IMG/VR virus record: IMGVR_UViG_3300012922_000012
Span: 1 to 33,904 of that record
Strand: one strand, 5' to 3'
DNA from: a virus
DNA: 33,904 nucleotides
Shown piece after piece: positions 358 through 32,889 of this stretch; positions within the stretch are counted from its first letter, which is position 1; every line of letters starts with the position of its first letter. Made by a program: the position numbers and the translations under genes. A model generated the notes under the pieces. That model was not told where the DNA came from. It ran no database searches and saw only the letters and a list, made by a program, of their open reading frames with translations.

Positions 358-806
358 GTCAATCCTTGCATTGCTTTTCGAACTGTTGACGGGCTGACGC
401 CTAGCGCCCTAGCCACCTCGCACTTATTGGTCTCCGCCCACGGCATGCGCCGCAGCCTCTCCACAGTGCTGGCGTGCAGCTTACCCAAGTATTCATCGGG
501 ATGCGAGCACATCGGCTTTTTTGCTTGGCTATACAAATGTCTGGGCTCACAGCACCGCATATCACCGCATGTCTGCGCGATGAAGAGTTTCGTGATGTCC
601 TCATTGGGGTGCGTCGCCGCGTACACGATCCGGTGCGCCTTCCAGCTCTTGCCCTGGTACCCGAACTCTCCGCTGCCGGCAAAGTTCAGGGCCGCCGTCC
701 AGATCAGACACTCCCCATGCGATTCAAGTTTACGGCTGAAGTTTCGCAGCTCCTTCTCGGTGAGCCCGTGAAGGCGCAGTAACAGGCTGAGGTCGTCGTC
801 TATCAT
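201..806 (-). CDS. HNH homing-type endonuclease, probably degenerate
   Basis: A 201-residue protein with the architecture of phage HNH_3-type homing endonucleases. The core lies at residues 33-92 (CLIWTAA, KAHRIVY at 56-62, then QTC...CCEPRHLY). A helix-turn-helix follows at about 127-148 (NKCEVARALGVSPSTVRKAM), ending in the TWKQH typical of the C-terminus of this family. The first catalytic His of the usual HTCDNP motif is Gln (Q78) and the usual CVNP is CCEP, so nuclease activity is doubtful. I chose ATG 806 because it forms an ATGA overlap with the preceding stop; a GTG at 836 is the alternative. After the HTH the frame runs on for about 45 low-complexity residues into the next gene, as if the normal stop had been lost by an indel. 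HNH identity is fairly sure; the true 3' end is not. Confidence 0.65.
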   Translation of the reverse strand: MIDDDLSLLLRLHGLTEKELRNFSRKLESHGECLIWTAALNFAGSGEFGYQGKSWKAHRIVYAATHPNEDITKLFIAQTCGDMRCCEPRHLYSQAKKPMCSHPDEYLGKLHASTVERLRRMPWAETNKCEVARALGVSPSTVRKAMQGLTWKQHTSPGTSSAGSSKSTMRGTISVSTTSQPGGISAVHPWKDRILRTSKST

Positions 807-967
807 TCGCAAGCGCTTGCCAGCCAGGCGGCCCACATCAGCTCAGAAATAGCCCGCGTGCGCGGCTTTCCGGCTTCAGGTAGTTTATTGAAACGCCTGA
901 AATACCAGTTGGTGAAGGCGGTCCGTTCACTCCTCTCATCAATCGGTGGCTCAGGGAGGTCGCGCAT
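803..967 (-). CDS. Small unknown phage protein (54 aa)
   Basis: A short gene of 54 codons starting at ATG 967-965, whose A overlaps the last base of the previous stop (TAATG). It ends in a TGA that overlaps the ATG of the HNH gene (ATGA). The protein begins MRDLPEPPIDERSERTAF and is rich in Arg, Glu and Trp (FTNWYFRRFNK, ELMWAAWLAS), so it is probably a small soluble helical protein. I know of no assigned function. The evidence that it is real is the perfect fill of the gap between two genes with overlapping stop/start codons at both ends, as elsewhere in this operon. Confidence 0.55.
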   Translation of the reverse strand: MRDLPEPPIDERSERTAFTNWYFRRFNKLPEAGKPRTRAISELMWAAWLASACE

Positions 968-1236
968 TACAAATCAGCTTTGGCGAGAATCTCGCGTGCT
1001 TTCGTAGCCTCGCAATCAGAAATAAACTCATAAGTCTCGATCAGATCGCGCAGCGCATCTAACATAGCAGGTGCTGCTGCGATCAGGCGGGCGTTCGCAC
1101 TCGCGTTTTTGAATGCGCCGTGCCGGTCAAACATGTGCACTATGGTCTGACCGGTTTGGCCGCCGTTGTCCACATGGACCATCGTAAATCCATCCACGGT
1201 GTCAGCCATCCACGGCCCCGGCGTATGCGCGCTCAT
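967..1236 (-). CDS. Conserved phage protein of the HTPGPW / ARLIAAAP type
   Basis: An 89-residue protein starting MSAHTPGPWMAD and carrying NARLIAAAPAMLDALRDLIE near its C-terminus (about residues 59-79). This pairing of an N-terminal HTPGPW and a C-terminal NARLIAAAP...L..L is a very common signature of small early proteins in phages of Proteobacteria. No function is established that I can name. ATG 1236 is preferred over the GTG three codons upstream because it makes an ATGA overlap with the preceding stop. It ends with a TAATG overlap into the next gene, so the operon is translationally coupled throughout. Confidence 0.75.
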   Translation of the reverse strand: MSAHTPGPWMADTVDGFTMVHVDNGGQTGQTIVHMFDRHGAFKNASANARLIAAAPAMLDALRDLIETYEFISDCEATKAREILAKADL

Positions 1237-1415: not shown

Positions 1416-1579
1416 ATGGGCCTCTCCATGGGGATCTCGGCATCCTGTAAGGCACGAACGGCGCGTTCCGCCATCGCATCCGCCATGTTATTCACCACGT
1501 CCGTTCCGTGGGCGGGCCACGCCTGCACGATGGCTCGAAGCGCATCGGCAAGGATCTGTGCCTGTTGTTTGATTGTCAT
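1412..1579 (-). CDS. Small helical unknown protein, first gene of the leftward operon (55 aa)
   Basis: A 55-residue, mostly helical, acidic protein (MTIKQQAQILADALRAIV..., AMAERAVRALQDAEI). The start at ATG 1579 is set by a GGAG Shine-Dalgarno sequence about 8 bases upstream; the same frame extends 17 codons further but without such a site and beyond the predicted transcription start. It is the promoter-proximal gene of the leftward operon, about 30 bases from the -10 box of the promoter at 1609-1637. No recognisable domain. Promoter-proximal position suggests early expression; that is inference. Confidence 0.6.
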   Translation of the reverse strand: MTIKQQAQILADALRAIVQAWPAHGTDVVNNMADAMAERAVRALQDAEIPMERPI

Positions 1580-2168: not shown

Positions 2169-2383
2169 ATATAGATAAACCCAGTTTTTCCGATGCGCTG
2201 AAACATTTCGGAACTGTGCACAAGTTCACAGTTACGGATGCTGTGCGGCTCGCCTGGTGGGAGGATTTGCATGATATGAGCCGCGCCGATTTCGATAGAG
2301 CTTGCATCGAGCTACGTCGCACTAGCGCCTGGTTTCCTAAGCCGTTTCAATTCCGCCAGGCGGCGCGAAAGGGGTGGATGTGA
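2162..2383 (+). CDS. Small replication protein, possible helicase-loader-like (73 aa)
   Basis: A 73-residue protein read from GTG 2162 (GAGG four bases upstream) and overlapping the previous gene by seven bases. The sequence SFSDALKHFG...KFTVTDAVRLAWWEDLHDMSRADFDRACIEL...AWFPKPFQFR has the W-x-x-x-L-x-x-(M/L)-(S/T)-x-x-x-(F/V)-x-x-A helix pair followed by P-x-P/F-x-x-F-R. That pattern occurs in the C-terminal part of phage lambda P-like and other helicase-loader or small replication proteins, which sample how far a host field is ready for replication. The assignment rests on this weak pattern and on the neighbours (DnaT-like, primase zinc domain, helicase). Confidence 0.5.
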   Translation: MVDIDKPSFSDALKHFGTVHKFTVTDAVRLAWWEDLHDMSRADFDRACIELRRTSAWFPKPFQFRQAARKGWM

Positions 2384-2838
2384 AAAAAGATCCGGTGCGC
2401 GCACAGGCAAAAGTTGCTGGAGATATCAAGTATATTGGAAATCCGTGCAGCGTTTGCAGCGGTGTTCATAGATATACGAAAAATGGCGGATGCGTCAGAT
2501 GCAATATTAAGCATACAATGGCCTGGGCTAAGCGTAACCCAGTAAAAACAGATGCAATTAATGCCCGTACTCGCGTCAAAAATGCCGAAAGGCGACGAAT
2601 GGCAGTCTGGGTATGTAATAAAATGCCAACGCCAACGAGAGTAAGGCCAAACTCATGCGAAATATGTGCTGGAGTTAATAAAAATGGCAAGGTCCTCTCT
2701 CTTGATCATTGCCATAAATCAAATATCTTTAGAGGTTGGTTGTGCAATAAATGCAATACCGGGCTTGGTAAATTAGGGGACAGCGTGCATAGTCTAGAGC
2801 GAGCGCTAGCGTATCTGAGGCTCGCATATGGAAATTGA
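2380..2838 (+). CDS. Endonuclease VII-type HNH nuclease (copy A)
   Basis: A 152-residue His-Me-finger nuclease of the recombination endonuclease VII (T4 gp49-like) fold. The zinc/catalytic core is CEICAG...LSLDHCHKSNIFRGWLC-NKCN-TGLGKLGD (residues about 94-135). DHCH supplies the catalytic His, the four Cys (CxxC ... CxxC) bind zinc, and RG(W)LC...CN.G.G is diagnostic. A second possible zinc pair (CSVC...CVRC) lies near residues 23-42. GTG 2380 overlaps the preceding TGA (GTGA) with AAGGGG upstream; GTG 2374 is an alternative. Such stand-alone genes are usually homing endonucleases. The gene is visibly A+T-richer than the genes before it and after the middle of the primase gene, a sign of transfer. 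A related copy lies at 11845-12198. Confidence 0.85.
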   Translation: MKKDPVRAQAKVAGDIKYIGNPCSVCSGVHRYTKNGGCVRCNIKHTMAWAKRNPVKTDAINARTRVKNAERRRMAVWVCNKMPTPTRVRPNSCEICAGVNKNGKVLSLDHCHKSNIFRGWLCNKCNTGLGKLGDSVHSLERALAYLRLAYGN

Positions 2839-5586: not shown

Positions 5587-5897
5587 AGAAAACAAAATTT
5601 AGCGACGAGGCGATCAACATCGCCGACAAGATGGTCAATGACTACGCGAACCTTGAGCGTAACCTGCGCGAGCTACGCACCGTGCTGGCGGCGATCTGCT
5701 TTCAGCAGGACGACAAGTCACTGATGGTGCCATTCTCATCGATGGTGCTACCACCAGGTATTGAGTTGGAGGTCAGTGTGGATCATGAGAATGATGCGTT
5801 CCAGTTCCGTCTGATCGGCTTAGATTCCACCAGCATCGAGAACGTCGTTAACGATTCCGCCCCGGGAGAAGGCGCCGGCCTTCCCGGTAATAACTAA
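5583..5897 (+). CDS. Unknown last gene of the replication operon (104 aa)
   Basis: A 104-residue protein: a helical N-terminal half (EAINIADKMVNDYANLERNLREL) and a beta-rich second half (PPGIELEVSVDHENDAFQFRLIGL). Start ATG 5583 overlaps the previous stop and has GAGAAGG close upstream. The last 26 codons overlap, antisense, the 3' end of the giant late gene coded on the other strand (78 bases shared). The tail SAPGEGAGLPGNN looks like a by-product of that overlap. Function unknown. Confidence 0.6.
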   Translation: MKKTKFSDEAINIADKMVNDYANLERNLRELRTVLAAICFQQDDKSLMVPFSSMVLPPGIELEVSVDHENDAFQFRLIGLDSTSIENVVNDSAPGEGAGLPGNN

Positions 5898-8800
5898 ATC
5901 CCTAGCCGACTCAGGTGAGATACCCAAACGTTGAGCGAGTTTACCAATCTGTGTCGACAGAATTTCGAGCTTCGGTGCGCCGATATCTGACTTCACGCCA
6001 GTGTAAGGACTGTATGCACCCCAAGCTAGAGCCTGCGCTGGCACGGACTCTAGACTTGCTGGAGCAGCTACGCGATTACGCCACCAGGGCGCCAATGTCT
6101 GCATCTCAGGTGTTGAAACTGACGAACCTGGCACAATTTCTTGACCCTTCGATGTCCGGGTGCCTCGCGTGTCTGCTAAGCCCACTCCGCGCGCCCAGTG
6201 AGCGTCGCCTACCGGTGTTTCCGTTTGGAAGCCAGTCTCCGGTACACCACTCGACTGAATGTAGAGCGGCACCTTTGGAGACTTCATCTGCACCTTACCG
6301 GTCTCCAGGTACTGCTGCATAGGCAGACCTTGTGCAGTCTTATGATAGACATGTCCTGGCAAATCCGCCATATCTGCCGGCGCGGTACCGCCCATACCAC
6401 CACCGAATCGCAGAAAGTCATTGAATCTGCCCTCATTGGAGAGCCAGTGCGCGCCAGTTCCACGAGCGATTTCAGTGCCCACGTCACTGCCAGGAGACGC
6501 CATGCCTACCATCGTGTTGAAGTGCGCGTACCTTGACGGCGCTTCCTCATCCCCGTATATTTGACGGAAGCGCTCGTACAGTGGATCCATCGCATACCAG
6601 CCAGTCATGCCCTTGAAAAGTTTAGGAGATTTACGTGCCTCACTCATCATGTCTATCAAGCGCTGCTCGTTCTTTGGAGTCATTACATCGCGAGCTGCTG
6701 CAGCGCCTGTCGGATTCTGTTTCGCTCCAGGCAGGTTACCCAGCTCGTTTCCCTGGCGGCTCAGCGCCAAGTCTGACAGGTCAGAGCGCGATACTCCAAA
6801 CAGCTGCTGCAATAGAGGATCTTCTGGGCCAACTTTCTGGGTGGCATCTGCAATCACTGTTCGAGGATCGCCGTATACTCCAGGAAAGGCATTCCGCTGC
6901 GGATTCGCAACCGTCTGCTGTCCCGGCTTCCACGGAGCCTGCGCTCGTGGGGAGCCCTGTAGATATTTCTCGACGAGATCGGGATCCGGTGCTGAGGTGG
7001 GTGGCACATCAACCGGGGAAGTGGTACTAGCTCCATGAATATCCCCTGTCCCAAGATCCTGAAATCCTGGTACACCGTGCTGACGTGCGACGTCGGACGC
7101 GTGCTCGAAGTCTGGGGTGACATGAGCTACGTGGAGGTAGCTATTTCCGTTTTCGTCGCCATGTACGTGAAGCGATGCCTGCGGGTCCTCGTCGAACGCA
7201 TCCTGGTGCGTCATCATGAAGTCGTGCAGGTCGTCGGGGGACGGCGGATGATCAAGCGCAATACTGCGTGCCGGCTGTGTAGGGACCGCGTATCCGCTGG
7301 TATGCAGCTCGCCGCTGGTCGGGTTGTACGTAACGCCACCGTGCGTGGTTACCTGACCCGCGAGGTGTTCGGCCTCTGGGGCGTATCGCCGCACAAGCGC
7401 CCCTAAGCCTCCCAGAGCGGTGCCGACCTCCCCTCCCTCGGCAAATCTTGGGTCATTGGACGGATCACGCTGGGAATGTCCCAGGTCGATTGTAGGTGGC
7501 ATCTGGTCTAGATCAGGGATCGATGGCACGGACTGCGGAGCGCCGAACTTCTTCCAGTCGCCCATTAGCTCTGGATTATGGTTTCCCAGACTCCAGCCTT
7601 CCTCTCCAGGGGTACCGCTCTCAAGCTGCAGCGCGGGACGCGGGGCGGTCGCTCTGCCGCTGTAGGTCTGTGCCCTGACGGTGTACACGTTCCCCTTCGG
7701 ACTCAGTAGACGCTCTCCTACCTCGTGCGGATAGACGCCGTTGTCCTTCCAGTGCTGGATGATCTGCTTTAGCTGATCTGCCTTCGTCTGCATGGCGGCT
7801 TGATTGGTCTTCGCGAACGCTGCTAATGCGCGCTCCGTCGGCGTACTCGCGCCCAGTGGCGTCACGGTGGCATACTTCTTGACGAGATTTCCAATGCCGC
7901 CCAGGATTGGGCCCACTTCCCCACCTTCGGCGAAGTCGCTGGTATCGGTGGTGTCATCGATTGGCGATACTGCGGATGTTTCGTTGTCCCTGAAGCGCGT
8001 TTTTGGTTTGGTGCCACGACCTTGTCGTGAGAACATATCTGAAACGTTGCTTTGCGGTAGCTGTGGAGTAGGAACTGATGTTGGTGCCGGATTTGGGTTC
8101 TTCATCTGCTCGATGAAGTCATCTACCTCACCAGGATGGAATCCTGACCATTCGCGCGCTCTCTCTGGCCCTGGTCCGAGTCTCGTAGCTGGAGTTGGAC
8201 CAAACATCCTGGCTTGCCCACGGAATAACCCTTCCCCCTCCGGAACATGATAGCCGGCGTAGCCCGCATCCTTGATCGAATCTTCAGCCTCGCTGAAGTT
8301 TTGTGCGGCAGCGCGAAGTCCCTGGGGATCGCTTGAGATGTCGTACATCGATGATTTTGGTACGCTTACCCTATACGGCGTCTTAGATTCCAGTCCTTGC
8401 TCGATCTTGGTGGGGTCGATGTCCCATGGATAGAGGCTAGTCGTCTTCGTACCGCCGCGACGAGCTTCCGCACCCTTGATCCCGGTGCCGTAGAACCGAG
8501 GATCTAGAGTAACTTCAGGACCAGACAGGTTGGACATGTGCAGAAAGTGTAGTTCTGGGTCTTCAAGGTTATTGAATTCCTCTGGCAGTATCCCTGTCTT
8601 TTGTGGGGCAAATACGGTATCAGCAGTCTTCGCCGTCCGGTTGGCTTCGCCATGTGGCCCGTAATTGAGCCAACTGTTCTGGCCGCGCGTCTCAGCGGTC
8701 ATCGCCGGGCGGGCGAGATCGGAGTACATGCCGGCGTGCTGCCGCCAAGCATTCTCCTCGCCATTCGCGCGGAATCCTACGCCTTCTTTTGCGTGTCCAA

Positions 8801-10499
8801 AGTAGTCATGAACGGCCCTGAAAATATCATTGTTGGTGGCAGGTACTCCACCGAAATTCTCCCCTGACTGGGTGAGTAGCGGATTACCTGATACGTCCTC
8901 CCCAGCACTGCCAAATCCAGCATCTGTTGGGTAGACGAACATGTGGTTGTTTTTTCGCACGTCTTCGGCGGCAAGTCTTGGGCTGGCTGCATACGGGTCC
9001 TCTCCTGGTGGCATGAACTCGACATTCACTCCGGCTTTCTTCATGTGCTGGTACTGAGCCAACGTCTCCTTGATCATGGCATCATAAGACGCCTTCACTG
9101 CCGGGTCGTTTGGATTGTGAGGCATAGCCTCGAAGGCGCCAGCTATCTGCTTCGCGCGCGCCGGATCGACCTGGGCGTACGTGCTCGGTGGATTGTACGG
9201 GAGCCCGGCTTCCTTCATATAGGCAGTAGCCGCATCTCGTGCAGGCTGGTGCGGGCCGACTTCGAATGTCCCCACACCGGGTACCGTGGCCTTACGCGGC
9301 ATGCCCTTCAGTGCCTCGGTCTGCTTGATTAGATCTCCGAGCCCGGCAAGTAGGCCGATCCGGCCACCTTTGGCGTGTGCCTGGCTGGCGATGTACTGCC
9401 CTGGCTCGGTCTCATCCTGTGGACGAGGGAAGGTCACGATAGGTTGCCCGTTCGAGCTGCGGATCACGGGTCCATCCACCGGGTCGTTGATCTCTTCATG
9501 CGCCGAGTTTAGGAACGAGTCCCCGGGGTGCTTCATGTAGGTCTTCATCGCCGGTACGCTGACCTGGGTATCGGAGGCGAAGTCCATTCCATTCTCATGG
9601 GCATGATTCAGTGCCCGCTGAAACAGCGATGTACCGATTCCTTGACCCTGCATATCTGGCCTAGTATCCATTCTGACCGACTGCATGGTATTCCCACGCC
9701 TGGCGACGATCTGACGGCTCAATAGGTCGCCAGTTTCCGGGTCGCGGGCGGTAAACGCCATCGTTCCCTCCGGATACTCGGCCGGCGGCGCCCATGGGGC
9801 TTGCGCCTCATTGGCGGGTTCCATCTGGATACTGTGCGCCGGACGCTGCCTGGCGGCCACAGCGCCCTCGTGGGCGGCCTGGCGGCCGGCGAAGGGCTCG
9901 GCGTAGGGTTGGGGCTCAATGCCCTCCTCAGTCATTCTCCGGCGGGCTGCGCCTTCCCTGGCCAGGGTACTGGCGTTCGCTCCGTCTGCAAGCAGGCGAT
10001 CATGACCTAGATTCATCATCTCACCGGCTCCGGCCGGCAGCCGGGCGACGGCGCGCTCGGCCCCCGCCTCGGGGAAGACCGCATTTGGGGCCGCCTCGCC
10101 TATTGCCCCAACGATGCCGGCGACGGGTGCTCCCAGATACTTTCCGGCCAGCTCAGATGCTTTGGAGACGATACGCGGGTAATTGGCGGCTAATATGCCA
10201 ACAGGAGACAATCTAGACGCATTGTGCACCGCACGACCGACCGCGTGATAGATCGGCGCGACCTGATTCTGTATGGTGCCGACACCTTCGGCGGACAACT
10301 CACCGGGCCCCATGCCCTCACTGACCTCGGCTCGGGCCCTTTCCATCGCATCTGGGCCCAATGGGAAAGCAGCGATACCAGACAACCCACCGACTATATT
10401 CGCGCCCCCGGTCTGTGCGAGATTGCGCAGTACATCCATGGCGCCTTTGTATTGCGCGATCTGGCCTTCTGTGTCTGGGGATGGGATTCGAGTTGCCAT
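5820..10499 (-). CDS. Giant multi-domain (polyvalent-type) late protein, probably packaged and ejected
   Basis: A 1559-residue protein at the promoter-distal end of the late operon. An N-terminal Gly/Ala-rich region (1-150) is followed by a GNAT acetyltransferase-like domain (about 247-330, acetyl-CoA loop QGQGIG at 284-289). Next is a domain with HDYFGH (564-569) and RGQNSW, known from many large phage proteins, then one around LHFLHMSNLSG (650-660) up to about 780. Another common phage domain (about 1050-1170, GGVTYNPTSGELHTSGYAV) precedes a C-terminal domain from about 1380. Modules FAEGGEV plus a glycine-rich amphipathic segment separate domains at 856 and 1019; HAKGGRI (375) and FSRGGIV (1544) are similar. 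This fusion style matches polyvalent proteins thought to be delivered with phage DNA to counter host defences. Delivery is inference; the GNAT call is moderate. Confidence 0.7.
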   Translation of the reverse strand: MATRIPSPDTEGQIAQYKGAMDVLRNLAQTGGANIVGGLSGIAAFPLGPDAMERARAEVSEGMGPGELSAEGVGTIQNQVAPIYHAVGRAVHNASRLSPVGILAANYPRIVSKASELAGKYLGAPVAGIVGAIGEAAPNAVFPEAGAERAVARLPAGAGEMMNLGHDRLLADGANASTLAREGAARRRMTEEGIEPQPYAEPFAGRQAAHEGAVAARQRPAHSIQMEPANEAQAPWAPPAEYPEGTMAFTARDPETGDLLSRQIVARRGNTMQSVRMDTRPDMQGQGIGTSLFQRALNHAHENGMDFASDTQVSVPAMKTYMKHPGDSFLNSAHEEINDPVDGPVIRSSNGQPIVTFPRPQDETEPGQYIASQAHAKGGRIGLLAGLGDLIKQTEALKGMPRKATVPGVGTFEVGPHQPARDAATAYMKEAGLPYNPPSTYAQVDPARAKQIAGAFEAMPHNPNDPAVKASYDAMIKETLAQYQHMKKAGVNVEFMPPGEDPYAASPRLAAEDVRKNNHMFVYPTDAGFGSAGEDVSGNPLLTQSGENFGGVPATNNDIFRAVHDYFGHAKEGVGFRANGEENAWRQHAGMYSDLARPAMTAETRGQNSWLNYGPHGEANRTAKTADTVFAPQKTGILPEEFNNLEDPELHFLHMSNLSGPEVTLDPRFYGTGIKGAEARRGGTKTTSLYPWDIDPTKIEQGLESKTPYRVSVPKSSMYDISSDPQGLRAAAQNFSEAEDSIKDAGYAGYHVPEGEGLFRGQARMFGPTPATRLGPGPERAREWSGFHPGEVDDFIEQMKNPNPAPTSVPTPQLPQSNVSDMFSRQGRGTKPKTRFRDNETSAVSPIDDTTDTSDFAEGGEVGPILGGIGNLVKKYATVTPLGASTPTERALAAFAKTNQAAMQTKADQLKQIIQHWKDNGVYPHEVGERLLSPKGNVYTVRAQTYSGRATAPRPALQLESGTPGEEGWSLGNHNPELMGDWKKFGAPQSVPSIPDLDQMPPTIDLGHSQRDPSNDPRFAEGGEVGTALGGLGALVRRYAPEAEHLAGQVTTHGGVTYNPTSGELHTSGYAVPTQPARSIALDHPPSPDDLHDFMMTHQDAFDEDPQASLHVHGDENGNSYLHVAHVTPDFEHASDVARQHGVPGFQDLGTGDIHGASTTSPVDVPPTSAPDPDLVEKYLQGSPRAQAPWKPGQQTVANPQRNAFPGVYGDPRTVIADATQKVGPEDPLLQQLFGVSRSDLSDLALSRQGNELGNLPGAKQNPTGAAAARDVMTPKNEQRLIDMMSEARKSPKLFKGMTGWYAMDPLYERFRQIYGDEEAPSRYAHFNTMVGMASPGSDVGTEIARGTGAHWLSNEGRFNDFLRFGGGMGGTAPADMADLPGHVYHKTAQGLPMQQYLETGKVQMKSPKVPLYIQSSGVPETGFQTETPVGDAHWARGVGLADTRGTRTSKGQEIVPGSSVSTPEMQTLAPWWRNRVAAPASLESVPAQALAWGAYSPYTGVKSDIGAPKLEILSTQIGKLAQRLGISPESARDLVITGKAGAFSRGGIVNDVLDAGGI

Positions 10500-10502
10500 G
10501 TT

Positions 10503-11339
10503 CTACCGTAAGTGTTTCCAGTCGCCTGGGTGTTTTTTGCGCATGTAATCCATAAGGTCCATCTTCTCGTACTTCCGGCATAGATACGAAAGAGTAAGAG
10601 GCATTATGCTGTAGTCGCCTTCCTTGACTTCGTTGAGGACGACGATCCCGCGCCAATGGCGCTGGCACTGCGCTCCGCGATAATCCTCTTCGTGAAGATA
10701 GCAAGATCCGGCTACAAGTCCGTGACGTGTTTCACCGGTTGGGAAGATGCGGGACCCGTACAGCATACCCTGTTGGTGGCCTTGGCAAAATGATACGCCG
10801 ATTTTATTAAGCCGGTTGTCGATGGATCCGCCAATCGCGAACTTCGACATCGACGACTGGAAGTAGTGGGCGTACGTGATGCCGTCGATGTCGACGGTTT
10901 GCAGGAATGGGTACCGCTTCCAGCCAGGAGATTTAAGGTGGTGAAGGCCGATGGTGCCCTCGTATTTGACGTCGTTCTCGACGGCGCGCGTGATTCGATT
11001 CTCGTGGTTGCCGAGCAAGTAGACCTGCTCTGGTGCCCATGCGCTCTTATTGCGCGACTGCCGCTTGATCTCTAGCCCAACGACGGAGTCATAGGTCGTG
11101 AAAAACTCATTCGCGGCCTCGATATCGTTTTCATACCGCGCTCCTTCGGTTTTCTTGGAGCCAGGCTTCTCATGCTGACTTAGGCTTGGCATGTCAGCAT
11201 TGTCGCCGACGTGAATAACTACATCTGGTTGGTAATCGATGACAGCTTGCGCAATCCACTTATGATGGTCGGTAGGAACCCCTGGCTTCGCTTGGGTATC
11301 AGGAATTATGAGGTGACGGCGGTACGGTGATTTGCTCAA
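10503..11339 (-). CDS. Calcineurin-like metallophosphoesterase
   Basis: A 278-residue phosphoesterase. Metal-binding motifs appear in the family order: IPDTQ (D14 and Q16, where most members have DxH), HVGDNAD (D46), LLGNHENR (N111 and H112), YAHYF (first downstream His) and GHQQG (final His motif). The fold hydrolyses phosphomono- or phosphodiesters with two metal ions; substrates of phage members are mostly unknown and include nucleic acids and cyclic nucleotides. It lies three bases upstream of the giant polyvalent gene and eight bases after the SPFH gene, in an accessory block at the end of the late operon. No signal peptide, so it would act in the cytoplasm or within the particle. Confidence 0.85.
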   Translation of the reverse strand: MSKSPYRRHLIIPDTQAKPGVPTDHHKWIAQAVIDYQPDVVIHVGDNADMPSLSQHEKPGSKKTEGARYENDIEAANEFFTTYDSVVGLEIKRQSRNKSAWAPEQVYLLGNHENRITRAVENDVKYEGTIGLHHLKSPGWKRYPFLQTVDIDGITYAHYFQSSMSKFAIGGSIDNRLNKIGVSFCQGHQQGMLYGSRIFPTGETRHGLVAGSCYLHEEDYRGAQCQRHWRGIVVLNEVKEGDYSIMPLTLSYLCRKYEKMDLMDYMRKKHPGDWKHLR

Positions 11340-11347
11340 GCTGGCTC

Positions 11348-11863
11348 CTAGTTTTGCATCAGGCGAATGGTTTTCACCAGAGCGAGACCTGCGAGCTGCA
11401 CGGACATCACTTCGATTCCGTACCGGAACGCACGTTTACGACAAGCTGCAGTGAGCTTATCTAGTATCTCGGTCGACCCGATTATATCGCACCAGTCATG
11501 GTCGCGCAACACGCGCCCCACTTCTCCCTGGCAGGCATCGCGGACGGCATGGTCGGTCTCTGCGATTTCTAACATGGCCTTGCGGATATCGTGGACCTTG
11601 TAAGTAATGATTGCATGGAACCCCACACTCTTTCCGTCTTTCGTGGTGATGCTCTCATTGCCCATGCTGTGAGTCGTCGGTACGACACTCTCATAAAGCA
11701 CGTGATCGATGCGAAATGGCCACATAAAGTGTAGACCTGGTTCGACGACACGCACGAATTTCCCTAGTCTCAAAAGGACGCCCTGCTCGAAACTATCGAG
11801 TACTATCCAGAAACGGAAAAGCTCCATTGATTGAATCAGAAATTCTACAAGGCGGTCGAACAC
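11348..11863 (-). CDS. SPFH / Band 7 (stomatin-prohibitin-like) protein
   Basis: A 171-residue protein with the SPFH core: FEQGVLLRLGKFVRVVEPGLHFMWPF (in the region of residues 25-50), then STTDGKS-type strand (ITTKDGKSVGFHAIITYKV), a helical part with VRDACQGEVGRVLRD and a C-terminal helix YGIEVMSVQLAGLAL. Host relatives (HflK/HflC, stomatins) scaffold membrane microdomains and regulate FtsH protease. Here the N-terminal membrane anchor is only a short amphipathic stretch (LVEFLIQSMELFRFWIVL) and the long C-terminal coiled coil is missing. GTG 11863 has AAGGAG seven bases upstream. It overlaps the EndoVII copy B by 19 bases. Confidence 0.82.
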   Translation of the reverse strand: MFDRLVEFLIQSMELFRFWIVLDSFEQGVLLRLGKFVRVVEPGLHFMWPFRIDHVLYESVVPTTHSMGNESITTKDGKSVGFHAIITYKVHDIRKAMLEIAETDHAVRDACQGEVGRVLRDHDWCDIIGSTEILDKLTAACRKRAFRYGIEVMSVQLAGLALVKTIRLMQN

Positions 11864-12198
11864 GATGCGCTCCTTCTGATGTATGCCAGTGCCAGCAGAA
11901 GACCGGCTTCATTATCCCCTAGTGCGCCGATTCCTACATTGCACTTGTGGCATAACCAACCACGAAATATACCGGTTTTGTGATCGTGATCCAGTCTAAA
12001 AGACCGTCCACGATTGCATGGCTTTGGAGTGCCACAGCATTCGCAATTTGCGGGCTCCGGCCTGGTCGGTTCTGGACATCCCTGATATTTCCTATTGGAT
12101 GCTCGAACCTGGGCGCGTATCTTCTCTAGCTTTATCGGATCCTGGCGCAACCTTTTCTGACAGTCGCGCTGTTGCGCCTTGCGTTTCTCTGAAGCCAT
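11845..12198 (-). CDS. Endonuclease VII-type HNH nuclease (copy B)
   Basis: A 117-residue His-Me-finger nuclease. Core: NCECCGTPKPC...FRLDHDHKTGIFRGWLC, HKCNVGIGALGD (about residues 51-97), with DHDH catalytic residues and CxxC/CxxC zinc ligands. The C-terminal part FRGWLCxKCNxGxGxLGD...LALAYIR is close to copy A at 2380-2838, clearer than to copy C at 32473-32889, so A and B probably share a recent ancestor. It starts at ATG 12198 with AGGAG seven bases upstream and has a basic N-terminus (SEKRKAQQRDCQKRLRQ) that may bind DNA. It separates the ejection genes from the SPFH/phosphoesterase block and is likely a mobile homing-type insertion. Confidence 0.85.
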   Translation of the reverse strand: MASEKRKAQQRDCQKRLRQDPIKLEKIRAQVRASNRKYQGCPEPTRPEPANCECCGTPKPCNRGRSFRLDHDHKTGIFRGWLCHKCNVGIGALGDNEAGLLLALAYIRRSASCSTAL

Positions 12199-12346: not shown

Positions 12347-12414
12347 GCCACGCAATCGTACTGGGACTCAGTATTTACTTTATAATACTTGGTCTTACGG
12401 GAAACTCTCGTTAA
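12343..12414 (+). CDS. Tiny membrane peptide 2 (23 aa), coupled to peptide 1
   Basis: MSHAIVLGLSIYFIILGLTGNSR: one hydrophobic helix (about residues 4-18) with polar ends. Its ATG overlaps the TGA of peptide 1 (ATGA), the same coupling style as other genes in this phage. Its stop TAA shares bases with the stop of the 649-residue late protein on the minus strand (12411-12413). Size and composition fit a membrane-inserted peptide acting together with peptide 1. Real coding status needs expression data; the evidence is the coupled start, hydrophobicity and the gap it fills exactly. Confidence 0.45.
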   Translation: MSHAIVLGLSIYFIILGLTGNSR

Positions 12415-14360
12415 TGGTCTTGAGCCGCCACAGATTGATCTATATGACGATCGAAATCTGATCCGACTGGGCCGCTTGGTGTATTTCCAGGATCTGGCGT
12501 AGTTGCTACTGACTCATCATGTGACCCAGTAGCTTCTTTGGCGGCCTGCTTAACCAGGTCCCAAAACGATGATTTTTTGTAGACTGATCCGCCATCGGCA
12601 TGCCCAGCAAGTGCACCACTCTGGCCAGCATCAGCAAGATCGCTTTCAGCCTGTTCGCGCTCAGGGGCCGCCGCACCTACACCAACCGCCGCACCAGGTC
12701 CGAGAGATTCCAATGTCGGATTGACATATTTTGCCAATCCGGCTGGCATCCTGCTCATATAATAACGTGCAGCAAGTTTACTATTGAGGGCTCGATTACC
12801 AAGGATATTGGCGCCAACCGCCCCAAACGTATACGGATCAAATGCTGGTAATAGCGTATGCGCACCCAGTCCAACGCCACCAGCGATCATGTTCTTCTGT
12901 GCGGTTCCGCTATTCGGTATGCGCTCTTGAAGATTCTCTTTTCCGATATCTGCTAAATCCGAGAGTTTTCCTCTATTGTTCTTGGCGGTAATCAGGCGCT
13001 GCCGCAGCAAAGCCGGTGATACGCCTTCATTACCACCTTTTTCTACTAATGGCTCTATGGATTTGAGGTTCCTATACTGACCGCGTAGACCTTGCCAGGC
13101 ATCATATGTGCCATGCGGAATGCCATTCTCCATCATCGACATAAATTCGTCTTGTAGACCACCAAAATAATGCTTTAGGTCTCCATCGGTCTCGCTACGA
13201 ATTTGGCGCTGAAGTGCAGTATTCGCTTGCCGCCATGCGTCACCAGGTATGGTTCCAGTATTGGGATCTACGTGCGCAAATAACTGCTTAACTTTATCTT
13301 CTACTGCTTTGATATTCTCTGGTGTGGCGTTCGCGCGCGCATCTTGGACAACATTCATCATACCGCGAATATTATTCTGTGTTGGGATCGCGGTATGACT
13401 AGAGGCAACTTGGCCTATTGAGTTACCGACTAGATCCTTGGCATCATCTAGCATATCTGGAGTGATCGCTCCATGTGCATTCGGTATGCCAGATGCCCGC
13501 CCTATAGCATTATTGAATGCAGCACGCTGCTCGGCGGCGCGCGGTTCCGCCCCGCTTAATGGAAGCACATCAGTTAGGTTACTGTAATGTTTGAGGAATT
13601 TTGAATTACTAAGCTGTGGAACGCGCAGGTCTATCCCATATTTGCGTGCTAATTCGTATGCGGTACGCGCCGCCGGAGCTACACTATCGACGCCGGAGCG
13701 CACTACTTGCTGCGCCACCTTTCCCACTTCATTACCGGCTCCGGCTGATGCCGCACCGATGGCAGCATTACGTAGCCGCGTCTGACCGGTACCGACTGGT
13801 TCGATAGCGCCAATAGCTGCACCACCAGCTTCTGGGGCGATTACGCTGGCGAGTTTCGTGCCGGCGCTGATCAGGCCCGGTACCTTACTCGCGGCGCCAA
13901 GTACCTTCGCAATACCCATGCCCGGTAGCGCGAATGTTGCCGCCCCGCCGGCTACGTTACCTGCTAGTCCGGCGGCAGTTGCGTCTAGTGGCGCATTGAT
14001 GCGACGATCTTCGTCGACTTGCTCTGGCGTACGCTGCCCGAATAATTGCGCTATTCCTTTACCGGTGTCGACCATGGATTGGCCGGCGCCGGCTAGAAAG
14101 CGGTCGATACCCTGCGAGGTCTTGATGCCAGTGTGGAATGGGCCAACTTGCAACTCACTGCCGCCAGCGCTCGGATCATAGGCTGACGTATTACCATTGC
14201 CGCCTTCCTTGGCGGCACCCCCGGGTGGCGTAATTGTTGGCACCGGACTAGGATCGTACTCGCCGTTATGGATCATCATAGCGATGTCTTGGGCGGCAGC
14301 CTGATCCTGATTGTTATGTGCCAACTGCAGTGCGTGCAGTAAGTCCTCTTGGGTGGCCAT
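12411..14360 (-). CDS. Ejection-type internal virion protein (649 aa)
   Basis: Probably packaged in the head and released with the DNA to help it cross the cell envelope. The N-terminus (EDLLHALQLAHNNQDQAAA, AQDIAMMIHNGEYD) has the helical pattern L-L-x-A-L-x-x-A...D-x-x-A-A-x-x-I-A typical of N-termini of phage DNA-transfer proteins. Residues about 120-215 are a long Ala/Gly-rich hydrophobic region (e.g. GLAGNVAGGAATFALPGMGI) able to enter membranes. The middle is helical, then more Gly/Ala-rich stretches and the motif HADGGSV (587-593) followed by an amphipathic helix. The C-terminus is acidic and polar. Starts with a TAATG overlap with the gene before it. Role inferred from composition and position among other such genes. 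Confidence 0.65.
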   Translation of the reverse strand: MATQEDLLHALQLAHNNQDQAAAQDIAMMIHNGEYDPSPVPTITPPGGAAKEGGNGNTSAYDPSAGGSELQVGPFHTGIKTSQGIDRFLAGAGQSMVDTGKGIAQLFGQRTPEQVDEDRRINAPLDATAAGLAGNVAGGAATFALPGMGIAKVLGAASKVPGLISAGTKLASVIAPEAGGAAIGAIEPVGTGQTRLRNAAIGAASAGAGNEVGKVAQQVVRSGVDSVAPAARTAYELARKYGIDLRVPQLSNSKFLKHYSNLTDVLPLSGAEPRAAEQRAAFNNAIGRASGIPNAHGAITPDMLDDAKDLVGNSIGQVASSHTAIPTQNNIRGMMNVVQDARANATPENIKAVEDKVKQLFAHVDPNTGTIPGDAWRQANTALQRQIRSETDGDLKHYFGGLQDEFMSMMENGIPHGTYDAWQGLRGQYRNLKSIEPLVEKGGNEGVSPALLRQRLITAKNNRGKLSDLADIGKENLQERIPNSGTAQKNMIAGGVGLGAHTLLPAFDPYTFGAVGANILGNRALNSKLAARYYMSRMPAGLAKYVNPTLESLGPGAAVGVGAAAPEREQAESDLADAGQSGALAGHADGGSVYKKSSFWDLVKQAAKEATGSHDESVATTPDPGNTPSGPVGSDFDRHIDQSVAAQDH

Positions 14361-15814: not shown

Positions 15815-16873
15815 TTACCCTGGTGTACTGGCTGCGCCCAATCCGGCGAGTGCGCCGCCTGCGGTGACGAGCGGGGAATCGCCGATTGTGGCTGGCGTAC
15901 CATTCGATGCGCCGTAGTTCGTGGTCGTGGTCGGGACTTGGATACCGGCGAGCGCGCCCTGCATGGCCGCAGCATTGGTAAGCGGTTGATTCTTCTGATT
16001 CAGGTAATCCTGGTATGCCAGATTCTCGTTCGCCTGGACTTGGGCCTGCTTCTGATTGCCCATCGCATTATTCTGATTAAGGGCGGAGATATTATTGCTC
16101 GTACCCTGACTACCAATATTGGCGAGTGCGCCACCCGCGTTAATGACGTCGGTGCCCGCGTTCTGTTCGGCGGTCTGTTGCGCCGTACCTAACTGTCCGG
16201 CGGTGCCGGCAAGAGCTGCCTGGCGCGCGGCGTCTGTTTGAGAGGCCCCCAATGATCCCTGATAACCAGCCTGCAATGCCCCGGCCTGTGCGTTGATGGT
16301 ATTCTGATTGTTCTGCTGGAGTGCATTCTCCAGGAGATTCGCACCCTGCGTGCTATTGCCCGTGATGTTACCGGCACCTATGATGCTCGATTGAAGGGCT
16401 GGTAATGTATAGTTCTGGAACTGAGTATTACCAGCATTCGCAATTGCTTGCGTGACATTCTGGTTGTATGGGTTCATGTAGCTGTTGACGTTGCTATATG
16501 CAGGCGTAGCCGCACTACTCAAGTATGGTTGTGCCGCCGCCAATCCACCCTGTCCAGGAGCAATTGATCCTTGCACAGTACCAACGCCCTGATTGACCAG
16601 GTTGCTGGAGGCCTGTGTATTACGCAGCGCGTCCCCAGACAGACCCTCAGATGCTGAGTACGCGCGCTGCGTCAACGGATCCTGGCCGGCGATGCGTGGT
16701 CCGTTATACGTCTGATATGGCTGTGCGGCGTACTGCGCAGCCGAATTCAGGATCTGCTGCGTATAATTCGTATACCAGCTCGGCAGCGCGGTCGAGCTTT
16801 CGCTCTCCTGCTGACTCTGTCCTGGTGTCGTACCAGATGTGAGGAACCCAAGGGCTCCGCCTGAACTACTCAT
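15815..16873 (-). CDS. Ala/Gln/Asn-rich virion protein, probable ejection protein (352 aa)
   Basis: A low-complexity protein rich in Ala, Gln, Asn, Gly and Ser. Early residues LPSWYTNYTQQILNSAAQYA and YNGPRIAGQDPLTQRAYS, and the mid-sequence YSNVNSYMNPYNQNVTQAI, are a recognisable pattern in structural proteins of many podovirus-like phages (W-Y-x-x-Y...Y-N-G-x-R-x-A-x...Y-M-N-P-Y-x-Q-N-V). The rest is a long glutamine/alanine-rich helix. It starts and is coupled via TAATG to the protein before it. Comparable proteins are found among internal or tail-tip parts of short-tailed phages; the exact role here is not established. Confidence 0.6.
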   Translation of the reverse strand: MSSSGGALGFLTSGTTPGQSQQESESSTALPSWYTNYTQQILNSAAQYAAQPYQTYNGPRIAGQDPLTQRAYSASEGLSGDALRNTQASSNLVNQGVGTVQGSIAPGQGGLAAAQPYLSSAATPAYSNVNSYMNPYNQNVTQAIANAGNTQFQNYTLPALQSSIIGAGNITGNSTQGANLLENALQQNNQNTINAQAGALQAGYQGSLGASQTDAARQAALAGTAGQLGTAQQTAEQNAGTDVINAGGALANIGSQGTSNNISALNQNNAMGNQKQAQVQANENLAYQDYLNQKNQPLTNAAAMQGALAGIQVPTTTTNYGASNGTPATIGDSPLVTAGGALAGLGAASTPG

Positions 16874-18009
16874 TACTGACCGCCCATATACTTGTGAATT
16901 GGCTTCGCATCTGGCGCCATTTTGCCCTTTGCTAAGGCGGTCCCTTTATGGGCGCGAACATTCTTGCGGAATTCATCCAGACGTTTGGCGCCTGCGCTAT
17001 TGTCGCCGTTGCCGAGCATCGACACGAGCTGGGCATCCATCACGTACTCGCCATTGGCAAGTCGCGCCGGAATGCTGTCGGAGGTCCCATCACCGGGACC
17101 CGTGACGTGCCGGCTCGTGCCAGGATTCATGGCGGCATGGAGCGCGCCCCGCATCGGCATTGGGTTGGCACCGCCTTTAGCAAACGGCTTCGCGGCCTGC
17201 ATGCGCTGCATCATCGTACTCGGCGGGCGCGGCTGTTGCGGGGCACCCATGGGAGCCGGTGGGGCGCCCTGTGGAGCCGGCATAGGCGAGCGTGTCGGCG
17301 CAGGCGGTGGGCCCATCATTGCCGTATTTGGTTGACCCATCATCGCCGGACTCATGCCCATATTGGGCACCATTCCGCCCATATCGAATGTCGGAACGTG
17401 ACCACCGCGCGCCATGGTAACTGGCGCTATTGGCGCTCCTTTACCTGTAACCTGTTGAAAGAATTGATGTTCAGGCCCGGTTCCGTAGGTGAAATAGGAC
17501 GGCGCCGGGGGTGCGGCAGTCTTCGGTGCGTACCCCAAACCGTTTTTAGCACCTGCATAATTCGCGAAATTATAGCCACCATTTGGCCCGTAACCTGCCG
17601 TCGAGCTGCCAGGTAGCGCGGGAAGCGCGCCCATAGCCGGCATATTCGGGAGTTTGCTGCCAGCTGCATTCTGTTTGTAGTTTCCATAGGCGCTGAGAAG
17701 CCCTATGGCGGCCTTTAGGGCGGCGGTGTTGCTCGTATCACCCCCACCAAGCCCGAGTGAGCTGAGGGCTTTAGAGAGCGCCCCACCGATGCTTCCCTGG
17801 CTGGGATTGGATGGCGTATTGGCGGTCGACGCCGCCGGCATCGTGGTCGCATCAGAAGTGTCATTACTGATATCCGAGTACGACGGCGCACCGCTATTAC
17901 CTGGTGAGGCCTCCGGCGCGCTATAGCTCGTGTCTGTTGCCGAGTACGGTACGCCAGGGATGTCGTAATTAGTCGGATCAAATGATGGATTGGTGTAGTC
18001 GTCGAGCAT
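16873..18009 (-). CDS. Pro/Gly/Met-rich virion protein with GPGxGTSDSIPA motif (378 aa)
   Basis: A mostly disordered protein (Pro, Met, Ala, Gly). Residues about 304-325 carry GPGDGTSDSIPARLANGEY, followed by an ordered helix with MLGNGDNSAGAKRLDEFRKNVR. This motif is well known from C-terminal parts of phage tape-measure and other virion proteins. Upstream are MARGGHV (199-205) and FDMGGMV, members of the GG motif that recurs in this phage. Residues 159-198 (GYAPKT...SYFTYGTGPEHQFFQQ) are related to residues 310 onward of the next upstream gene, so the two proteins share a module. No membrane segment. Likely a component that assembles with or inside the tail, by analogy. Confidence 0.6.
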   Translation of the reverse strand: MLDDYTNPSFDPTNYDIPGVPYSATDTSYSAPEASPGNSGAPSYSDISNDTSDATTMPAASTANTPSNPSQGSIGGALSKALSSLGLGGGDTSNTAALKAAIGLLSAYGNYKQNAAGSKLPNMPAMGALPALPGSSTAGYGPNGGYNFANYAGAKNGLGYAPKTAAPPAPSYFTYGTGPEHQFFQQVTGKGAPIAPVTMARGGHVPTFDMGGMVPNMGMSPAMMGQPNTAMMGPPPAPTRSPMPAPQGAPPAPMGAPQQPRPPSTMMQRMQAAKPFAKGGANPMPMRGALHAAMNPGTSRHVTGPGDGTSDSIPARLANGEYVMDAQLVSMLGNGDNSAGAKRLDEFRKNVRAHKGTALAKGKMAPDAKPIHKYMGGQ

Positions 18010-29625: not shown

Positions 29626-30477
29626 TTACTTGTGCGCCCGGCCGCCGCGCTTCATTGGGGGCGCGCCAGGGGCCTGTGGGGCCATTGCGCCCATCGCCCC
29701 GCCTGGGGGAGCTCCCATGCCTGGCGCCATTCCTGGGGGCGCTGCGGGGCCCTGGGACGGCATCGCGGCACCACTCAGAGCTCCGGCGAGCGCACCAAGC
29801 GCACTGGCCTTCGGGCCCTTGGGCTTGTGGCCCTTGGCGTGGATGGCTGCGTTCTTGCGCGGGCTAGTCCCTCGGCTGAGTCCGCCCATCGCCGCCTTCG
29901 CGACGCCCGACTTCATCTCCACCCGGCTTCCTGGGGAGGTCTTCGGCGTGCCGGCGTGGCTCTCGGCCTTGCTGGCGTTGGCCGGTTTGACGGGAGCCGG
30001 CACCTTGCCAGAACTCGCTTTCCCGCTCGGCACTTCACTGTGGGTGGCTTTTACCTTGCCGCCGTGCGCGTAATGGCCGAGATTCTTGATCCGGCCACCT
30101 TTATTGAAGTCTGAGTACCCACTCATCCGTTCAACATTGCCGGACTGCTTCGTAGCCGGCGGCGTGCCCCGGCCCTCGGTGGCGAACTTATTGCGCGCCG
30201 CCGACTGATTGCTATCCTTCTCGCTCATCGGGGTCCGCTTGGGGCTTCCAGGACTCACGGCATCATCTGCGTTCCAGGATGCTTTTCGGCCCATTCCTAC
30301 TTTACCAGTGGCGGTACCGATGTCCGCGCTCCCGCCATTTGCGTAACAGCCAGCGGATCCACCCTTCGCGTACCGCATCGGGGTCGACGCCACGTGACCG
30401 CCGCGTGCATATCCTTTGATGGTCGGCCGGGGTGGTGATGGGGCGAAACTGAAGTCTGAGACGTACTGTACGGCCAT
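29626..30477 (-). CDS. Basic, disordered GG-motif protein of the capsid region (283 aa)
   Basis: A highly charged, low-complexity protein rich in Lys, Gly, Ala and Pro; no fold is recognisable. GG motifs occur at residues 26-27 (GYARGGHVA), 39-40 (RYAKGGSAG), 48-49 (CYANGGSAD), 127-128 (DFNKGGRIK), 139-140 (HYAHGGKVK) and 278-279 (KRGGRAHK). The region 150-230 is Lys/Ser/Pro-rich, then a Gly/Pro/Met/Ala tail. Net positive charge suggests DNA or scaffold binding inside the head. It lies between two small capsid-type proteins and the connector gene. Function unknown; its motif content connects it to the ejection proteins downstream. Confidence 0.6.
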   Translation of the reverse strand: MAVQYVSDFSFAPSPPRPTIKGYARGGHVASTPMRYAKGGSAGCYANGGSADIGTATGKVGMGRKASWNADDAVSPGSPKRTPMSEKDSNQSAARNKFATEGRGTPPATKQSGNVERMSGYSDFNKGGRIKNLGHYAHGGKVKATHSEVPSGKASSGKVPAPVKPANASKAESHAGTPKTSPGSRVEMKSGVAKAAMGGLSRGTSPRKNAAIHAKGHKPKGPKASALGALAGALSGAAMPSQGPAAPPGMAPGMGAPPGGAMGAMAPQAPGAPPMKRGGRAHK

Positions 30478-32472: not shown

Positions 32473-32889
32473 TTATTGCAGGTACTCGATGGCCTTTGCC
32501 AGTACCGCAGGATCGTGAGAAAAACAGCCAATGCCTCTATTACAGGCTTGGCATAAAAGGCCACGCACCTTTCCGGTATCATGGCAGTGATCGACGGCAA
32601 GGCGCAATACCTTACCATTAGTCGTCTTGTTTTCCGGCTTACCGCAGATCGCACAGGTGTGATTCTGCTTGATTAACTGCGCATCATACCAGGCGGAATC
32701 TATTCCGTAGGCGTAACGCAATGCCCGGTCGCGCATTGTGGCGCGAGGTACTTTTCCCATTCTGATTCTAGCATCCGCCAGTTTCTCTGGGTGCGCCTTA
32801 TACCATTTGCGCATGTAATGCATATTGCACATACCCTTTGCTTGATGTGGTTTACCACACCCGGGTTCAGAGCAAATTTTTTCTAACAT
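32473..32889 (-). CDS. Endonuclease VII-type HNH nuclease (copy C)
   Basis: A 138-residue nuclease. An N-terminal zinc-finger-like part (CSEPGCGKPHQAKGMCNMHY, residues 6-25) precedes the His-Me core HTCAICGKPENKTTNGKV, LRLAVDHCHDTGKVRGLLCQ and ACNRGIGCF (about 75-122). DHCH gives the catalytic residues, CxxC/CxxC the zinc site. It is more distant from copies A and B (RGLLC and IEYLQ rather than RGWLC and ALAY.R). Start at ATG 32889 has AGGAG about eight bases upstream. Lies between the capsid gene and the terminator, a place where homing endonucleases frequently invade. It may have come with its own expression signals. Confidence 0.85.
   Translation of the reverse strand: MLEKICSEPGCGKPHQAKGMCNMHYMRKWYKAHPEKLADARIRMGKVPRATMRDRALRYAYGIDSAWYDAQLIKQNHTCAICGKPENKTTNGKVLRLAVDHCHDTGKVRGLLCQACNRGIGCFSHDPAVLAKAIEYLQ

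Follow-up and report, generated by a model that had tools for sequence, protein, structure and literature searches.

A seven-residue Gly-Gly motif in a giant phage protein and in unrelated phage proteins: a candidate docking tag for ejected virion proteins

The giant protein encoded in the viral DNA segment analyzed here (the window, 33,904 nucleotides; IMG/VR record IMGVR_UViG_3300012922_000012) carries in its linkers copies of a seven-residue motif, [F/Y/H/M]-[A/S]-x-G-G-x-[V/I], that is under selection at the level of the protein, recurs in unrelated phage proteins and, in two unrelated proteins of the window phage, is prolonged by a glycine-rich extension. From the sequence patterns, we tentatively propose that the motif is a docking or sorting tag on internal, ejected virion proteins, an explanation to which we assign a little less than an even chance.

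The original prediction singled out three stretches, the residues and coordinates of which match a minus-strand ORF (Table 1), and described them as variants of one long pattern. Modules 2 and 3 fit this pattern in full, whereas module 1 lacks YA, and its GG is replaced by AG. The pattern resolves into two layers, namely, the seven-residue core and a glycine-rich amphipathic tail. There are four copies of the core in the giant protein compared with a mean of 0.03 in composition-preserving shuffles, and four or more copies were obtained in none of 20,000 and, separately, none of 4,000 shuffled versions of the protein. Of the 16 residues that modules 2 and 3 share, 10 are encoded by different codons. 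The fourth core copy, FSRGGIV, and those in other window ORFs had been overlooked.

Table 1. Motif copies and the features that carry them in the window
Feature	Coordinates	Residues	Strand	Remarks
Giant ORF, 1559 aa	5820..10499		-	polyvalent-like; adjoins DNA-ejection genes; carries the modules
Module 1, HAKGGRIGLLAGLGDLIKQT	9377-9309	375-397	-	low-confidence linker in model
Module 2, FAEGGEVGPILGGIGNLVKKYA	7934-7866	856-878	-	pLDDT about 33-52
Module 3, FAEGGEVGTALGGLGALVRRYA	7445-7377	1019-1041	-	pLDDT about 32
Fourth core motif, FSRGGIV	5850..5870	1544-1550	-	nine residues ahead of stop
Folded domain, phrog_3170, HDYFGH...EENAW..H signature	8568..9308	398-644	-	between modules 1 and 2
HADGGSV; extended module HADGGSVYKKSSFWDLVKQAAKEATGS	12522..12602		-	C-terminal tail of DNA-ejection-like protein 12411-14360
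Tandem pair MARGGHVPTFDMGGMV (MARGGHV/FDMGGMV)	17368..17415		-	ORF 16873-18009, ejection/tape-measure-like
Five core or relaxed copies	30052..30411		-	283-aa basic protein 29626-30477
Sixth relaxed copy	29635-29655		-	near C-terminus of protein 29626-30477

The giant protein resembles the polyvalent proteins of phages as they are characterized in passages of Iyer et al. 2017 (PMC5512222), being likewise large, multidomain and located in a virion/injection cassette: it is 1559 amino acids long, its conserved blocks have been recombined between relatives, it lies beside DNA-ejection genes, and one of its relatives is annotated as "large polyvalent protein" (OL906435). The passages of the Iyer et al. 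paper that are retrieved by term searches contain nothing on such a linker motif. No Pfam match in the giant protein reaches the cut-off, a GNAT match at residues 275-323 being weak and below it, and an ART-like reading comes down to an E of 7e-4 to a phage protein without assigned function. Residues 415-615 match phrog_3170 (E 1e-17), and the domain that encompasses them, residues 398-644, is kept in 17 other loci. The phrog_3170 domain is common to phages of cyanobacteria, actinobacteria and other hosts. For residues 641-1050, there are no relatives among the viral contigs, and none were confirmed in bacterial genomes.

The suggestion that the modules fall between domains is supported by an AlphaFold model spanning residues 345-1115, in which pLDDT is mostly 80-98 across residues 398-644 and drops below about 55 at the cores of all three modules, so that these appear as low-confidence linkers adjoining one confident domain; the case is weaker for modules 2 and 3, where the low pLDDT stems in part from the thin alignment beyond residue 644. 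A model of residues 1010-1559, built from two sequences, was set aside (mean pLDDT 36). A PDB fold search with the 398-644 domain gave no match, and as modeled, this domain possibly adopts an undescribed enzyme fold. A profile of the motif compared with the PDB matched no phage chain, and no docking partner, pocket or co-structure turned up for it.

The motif recurs both in homologues of the giant and in other phage proteins, which was the outcome sought by the search proposed along with the original prediction. In the window phage, three further proteins carry it, among them the basic protein (pI 10.6), in which six relaxed motifs are observed against 0.17 expected (0 of 4,000 shuffles); a match in the metallophosphoesterase-like ORF 10503-11339, FAIGGSI, may have arisen by chance. 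In the nearest relative (genome G001, locus L002), the capsid protein of which is 92% identical to that of the window phage, the homologues of these four proteins all have the strict or relaxed motif. The two giants have only blocks 414-643 and 1049-1550 in common; that of the relative carries HAAGGEV plus YADGGGV at the module 3 boundary, and its C-terminus is FSAGGVV directly followed by the stop. The homologue of the ejection protein retains YADGGQPKYEKSSTWDLLKQ, that of ORF 16873-18009 has HKRGGRVKKFAMGG at the position of the tandem pair, and the homologue of the basic protein has six copies. The motif is thus common to four unrelated cassette proteins in both phages, all putatively packaged.

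Across viral contigs, we found at least 120 matches to FAEGGEV, compared with 113 in a complete scan for the scrambled peptide VAEGGEF. Among the matches listed, FAEGGEV comes from about 96 mutually dissimilar proteins and the scramble from 31, and the matches lie in long ORFs in 112 of 120 and 68 of 113 cases, respectively. When codons were fixed so that both scans could be completed, FAEGGEV was encoded in 24 contigs and the scramble in none. The FAEGGEV contigs hold 78 further motifs, whereas the reversed motif numbers 2 there, and further copies within one protein number 59 in the FAEGGEV set and 0 in the scramble set (both among the matches listed). Around unselected GG pairs on these contigs, Y, M, F or H at -3, A at -2 and V at +3 are enriched. 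The members of 22 of the 51 motif pairs are 8-9 residues apart, and in other viral proteins, the copies are spread along the length of the chain. Among 121 matches listed, the motif DNA comes in 97 different encodings, which rules out a DNA-level element; because codon choice is free in this way, it is the protein, as far as the sequences tell, and not the DNA on which selection acts.

By family profiles, the carriers of FAEGGEV match tape-measure, DNA-ejection, endolysin/transglycosylase, ART-PolyVal, LPD23 and PcfJ families, and carriers of the scramble mostly match capsid/protease, portal and MazG families; the description of the motif carriers as putatively packaged and ejected comes from the minority of them that match a family. 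A few FAEGGEV matches are plainly other things, such as a RecA-like protein (L044) and a helicase. The internal virion proteins of T7-like pelagiphages and of P-SSP7 are without the motif, which, therefore, is no general requirement, and the annotated phages CRP-901, MJing1 and ct7QV12, relatives of a motif protein, have at most one loose match each. Lambda gpH (L281), which is cleaved during tail assembly, contains near forms of the motif in its C-terminal region, FATGGFT at 733-739 and YATGGYV at 778-784, in line with the matches of motif carriers to tape-measure PHROGs; the giant of the window phage, unlike gpH, is not a tape-measure protein, and PF09718 has no match in the window.

The second layer, a glycine-rich stretch with [D/N/A]L[V/I][K/R][K/R/Q] after the core, does not belong to the general motif. 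Among 2.2 million ORF residues, the extended form, defined by a pattern that was composed after the sequences had been seen, is confined to two phages, that of the window and its nearest relative, where it is present in the giant and in the unrelated ejection protein; no other extended-module protein was found. Because the extension recurs in this second protein and survives in a diverged homologue, it suggests that one partner might read it on both the giant and the ejection protein.

Under the docking explanation, the motif would reside in flexible linkers and tails of proteins that are packaged in head or tail and are delivered along with the DNA; as the particle assembles, the exposed peptide would fit into a pocket of a virion, scaffold or tail-lumen protein, which would thereby recruit and arrange unrelated cargo. 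Several copies per protein would provide avidity, and the short helix by which the window phage and the relative closest to it prolong the tag would be a lineage-specific extension of the contact. The virion localisation, the docking, the partner and the timing are what we infer. A docking tag accounts for the aromatic and Val specificity, the multiplicity, the tandem spacing, the C-terminal copies and the lineage-specific extension, and among the roles offered by the original prediction, docking fits best. The broader proposition that, across many unrelated tailed phages, the tag is recognized by a single conserved pocket in the lumen of the head or tail appears improbable; if true, it would amount to a cargo code whereby ejection, tape-measure, lysozyme and polyvalent carriers are packaged and injected, with some phages lengthening the tag by a helix of their own. 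To our knowledge, the selection of injected proteins for packaging is known in few phages, and a genuine tag would allow injected proteins to be predicted from sequence in unrelated phages. The nearest idea is the capsid targeting sequence (CTS) of T4, which is likewise a short peptide: internal, injected proteins that otherwise diverge have it in common, and about 10 residues are enough for foreign cargo to enter the head (PMC9026906). The CTS, however, is a propeptide at the N-terminus that gp21 removes, whereas FAxGGxV occurs internally or at the C-terminus, often in several copies, and across unrelated phages.

The invariance of GG is also what would be expected if a phage or host protease cut after x-GG to free the domains at head maturation or after injection. 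The copies lie in linkers of the model, GG-specific viral proteases exist, passages of PMC5512222 describe processing, known or predicted, of polyvalent proteins such as P1 DdrB, and homologous blocks begin within 40 residues past a motif in excess of expectation (42 versus 27; 3 of 1,000 randomisations). However, block ends ahead of motifs show no enrichment, a cut at the final FSAGGVV of the relative's giant would remove only two residues, and sites in tandem 8-9 residues apart would serve little purpose. The resemblance to adenovirus-type LxGG/x sites consists in the invariant GG and a hydrophobic residue upstream, which is at P4 in LxGG, whereas the motif has Ala at P4, an aromatic residue at P5 and a preferred Val two residues after GG; moreover, Pfam detected no protease among the scanned ORFs of the window, which is a fragment. 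Lambda gpH, considered as a proof of cleavage, turns out to be neutral to weakly adverse, given that residues 818-842, the part modeled in the published tail tip, lie beyond both motifs and are seen in the virion (PMC10721106). Altogether, we regard cleavage as unlikely. Similar doubt attaches to the idea that Gly-Gly forms a flexible spacer, a passive hinge with which giant proteins would more easily unfold or thread through portal and tail: the modeled linker position and the Gly-rich flanks would suit a hinge, but it needs no fixed aromatic residue, Ala or Val, all of which are enriched at exact offsets from GG, and the scrambled peptide, which keeps this GG, is rare.

Much less plausible is the view, also put forward in the original prediction, that the modules are membrane-active amphipathic segments aiding translocation. 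Four instances in the window phage are indeed followed by a short helix-like stretch, and for the three in the giant, the 13-residue helical moment is 0.42-0.50, but the 95th percentile across the giant is 0.50, the helices are predicted at low confidence, module 3 having none in the larger model, and after 183 motifs, the moment does not exceed that at random positions (p = 0.19), so that a general amphipathic helix following the motif was rejected. Least credible is the likeness to double-glycine leaders of the bacteriocin type, in favor of which is that a small Gly-rich stretch comes after Gly-Gly. Such leaders are N-terminal in short precursors and have a hydrophobic residue two before GG, whereas the motif begins at residues 375, 856, 1019 and 1544 of 1559 in the giant, is internal or C-terminal in large proteins, and has an F/Y/H-A-x-GG flank, with an aromatic residue, Met or His at -3 and Ala at -2 of the first G, which differs from the consensus of leaders; among the ORFs scanned in the window, itself a fragment, neither a C39 peptidase nor an ABC exporter was detected.

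Even if the docking explanation gave way to a cleavage site or a hinge, the motif would be a widespread feature, located in linkers here and apparently passed over by domain annotation. Searchable open-access text yielded no published description of it, which is weak evidence of novelty.

Several further features of the window are worth recording. A C-terminal DGTSDSIPARLANGEYVMDA... element of ORF 16873-18009 matches tape-measure profiles, and lambda gpH has a GEFV element resembling it between its two motif copies. An SPFH/Band_7 protein (11348-11863, minus strand) is encoded between the ejection and giant genes and is kept in the nearest relative. Three Endonuclease_7-type ORFs, at 2374-2838 (plus strand), 11845-12198 (minus) and 32473-32889 (minus), are scattered as expected of homing endonucleases, one of them adjoining the capsid gene.
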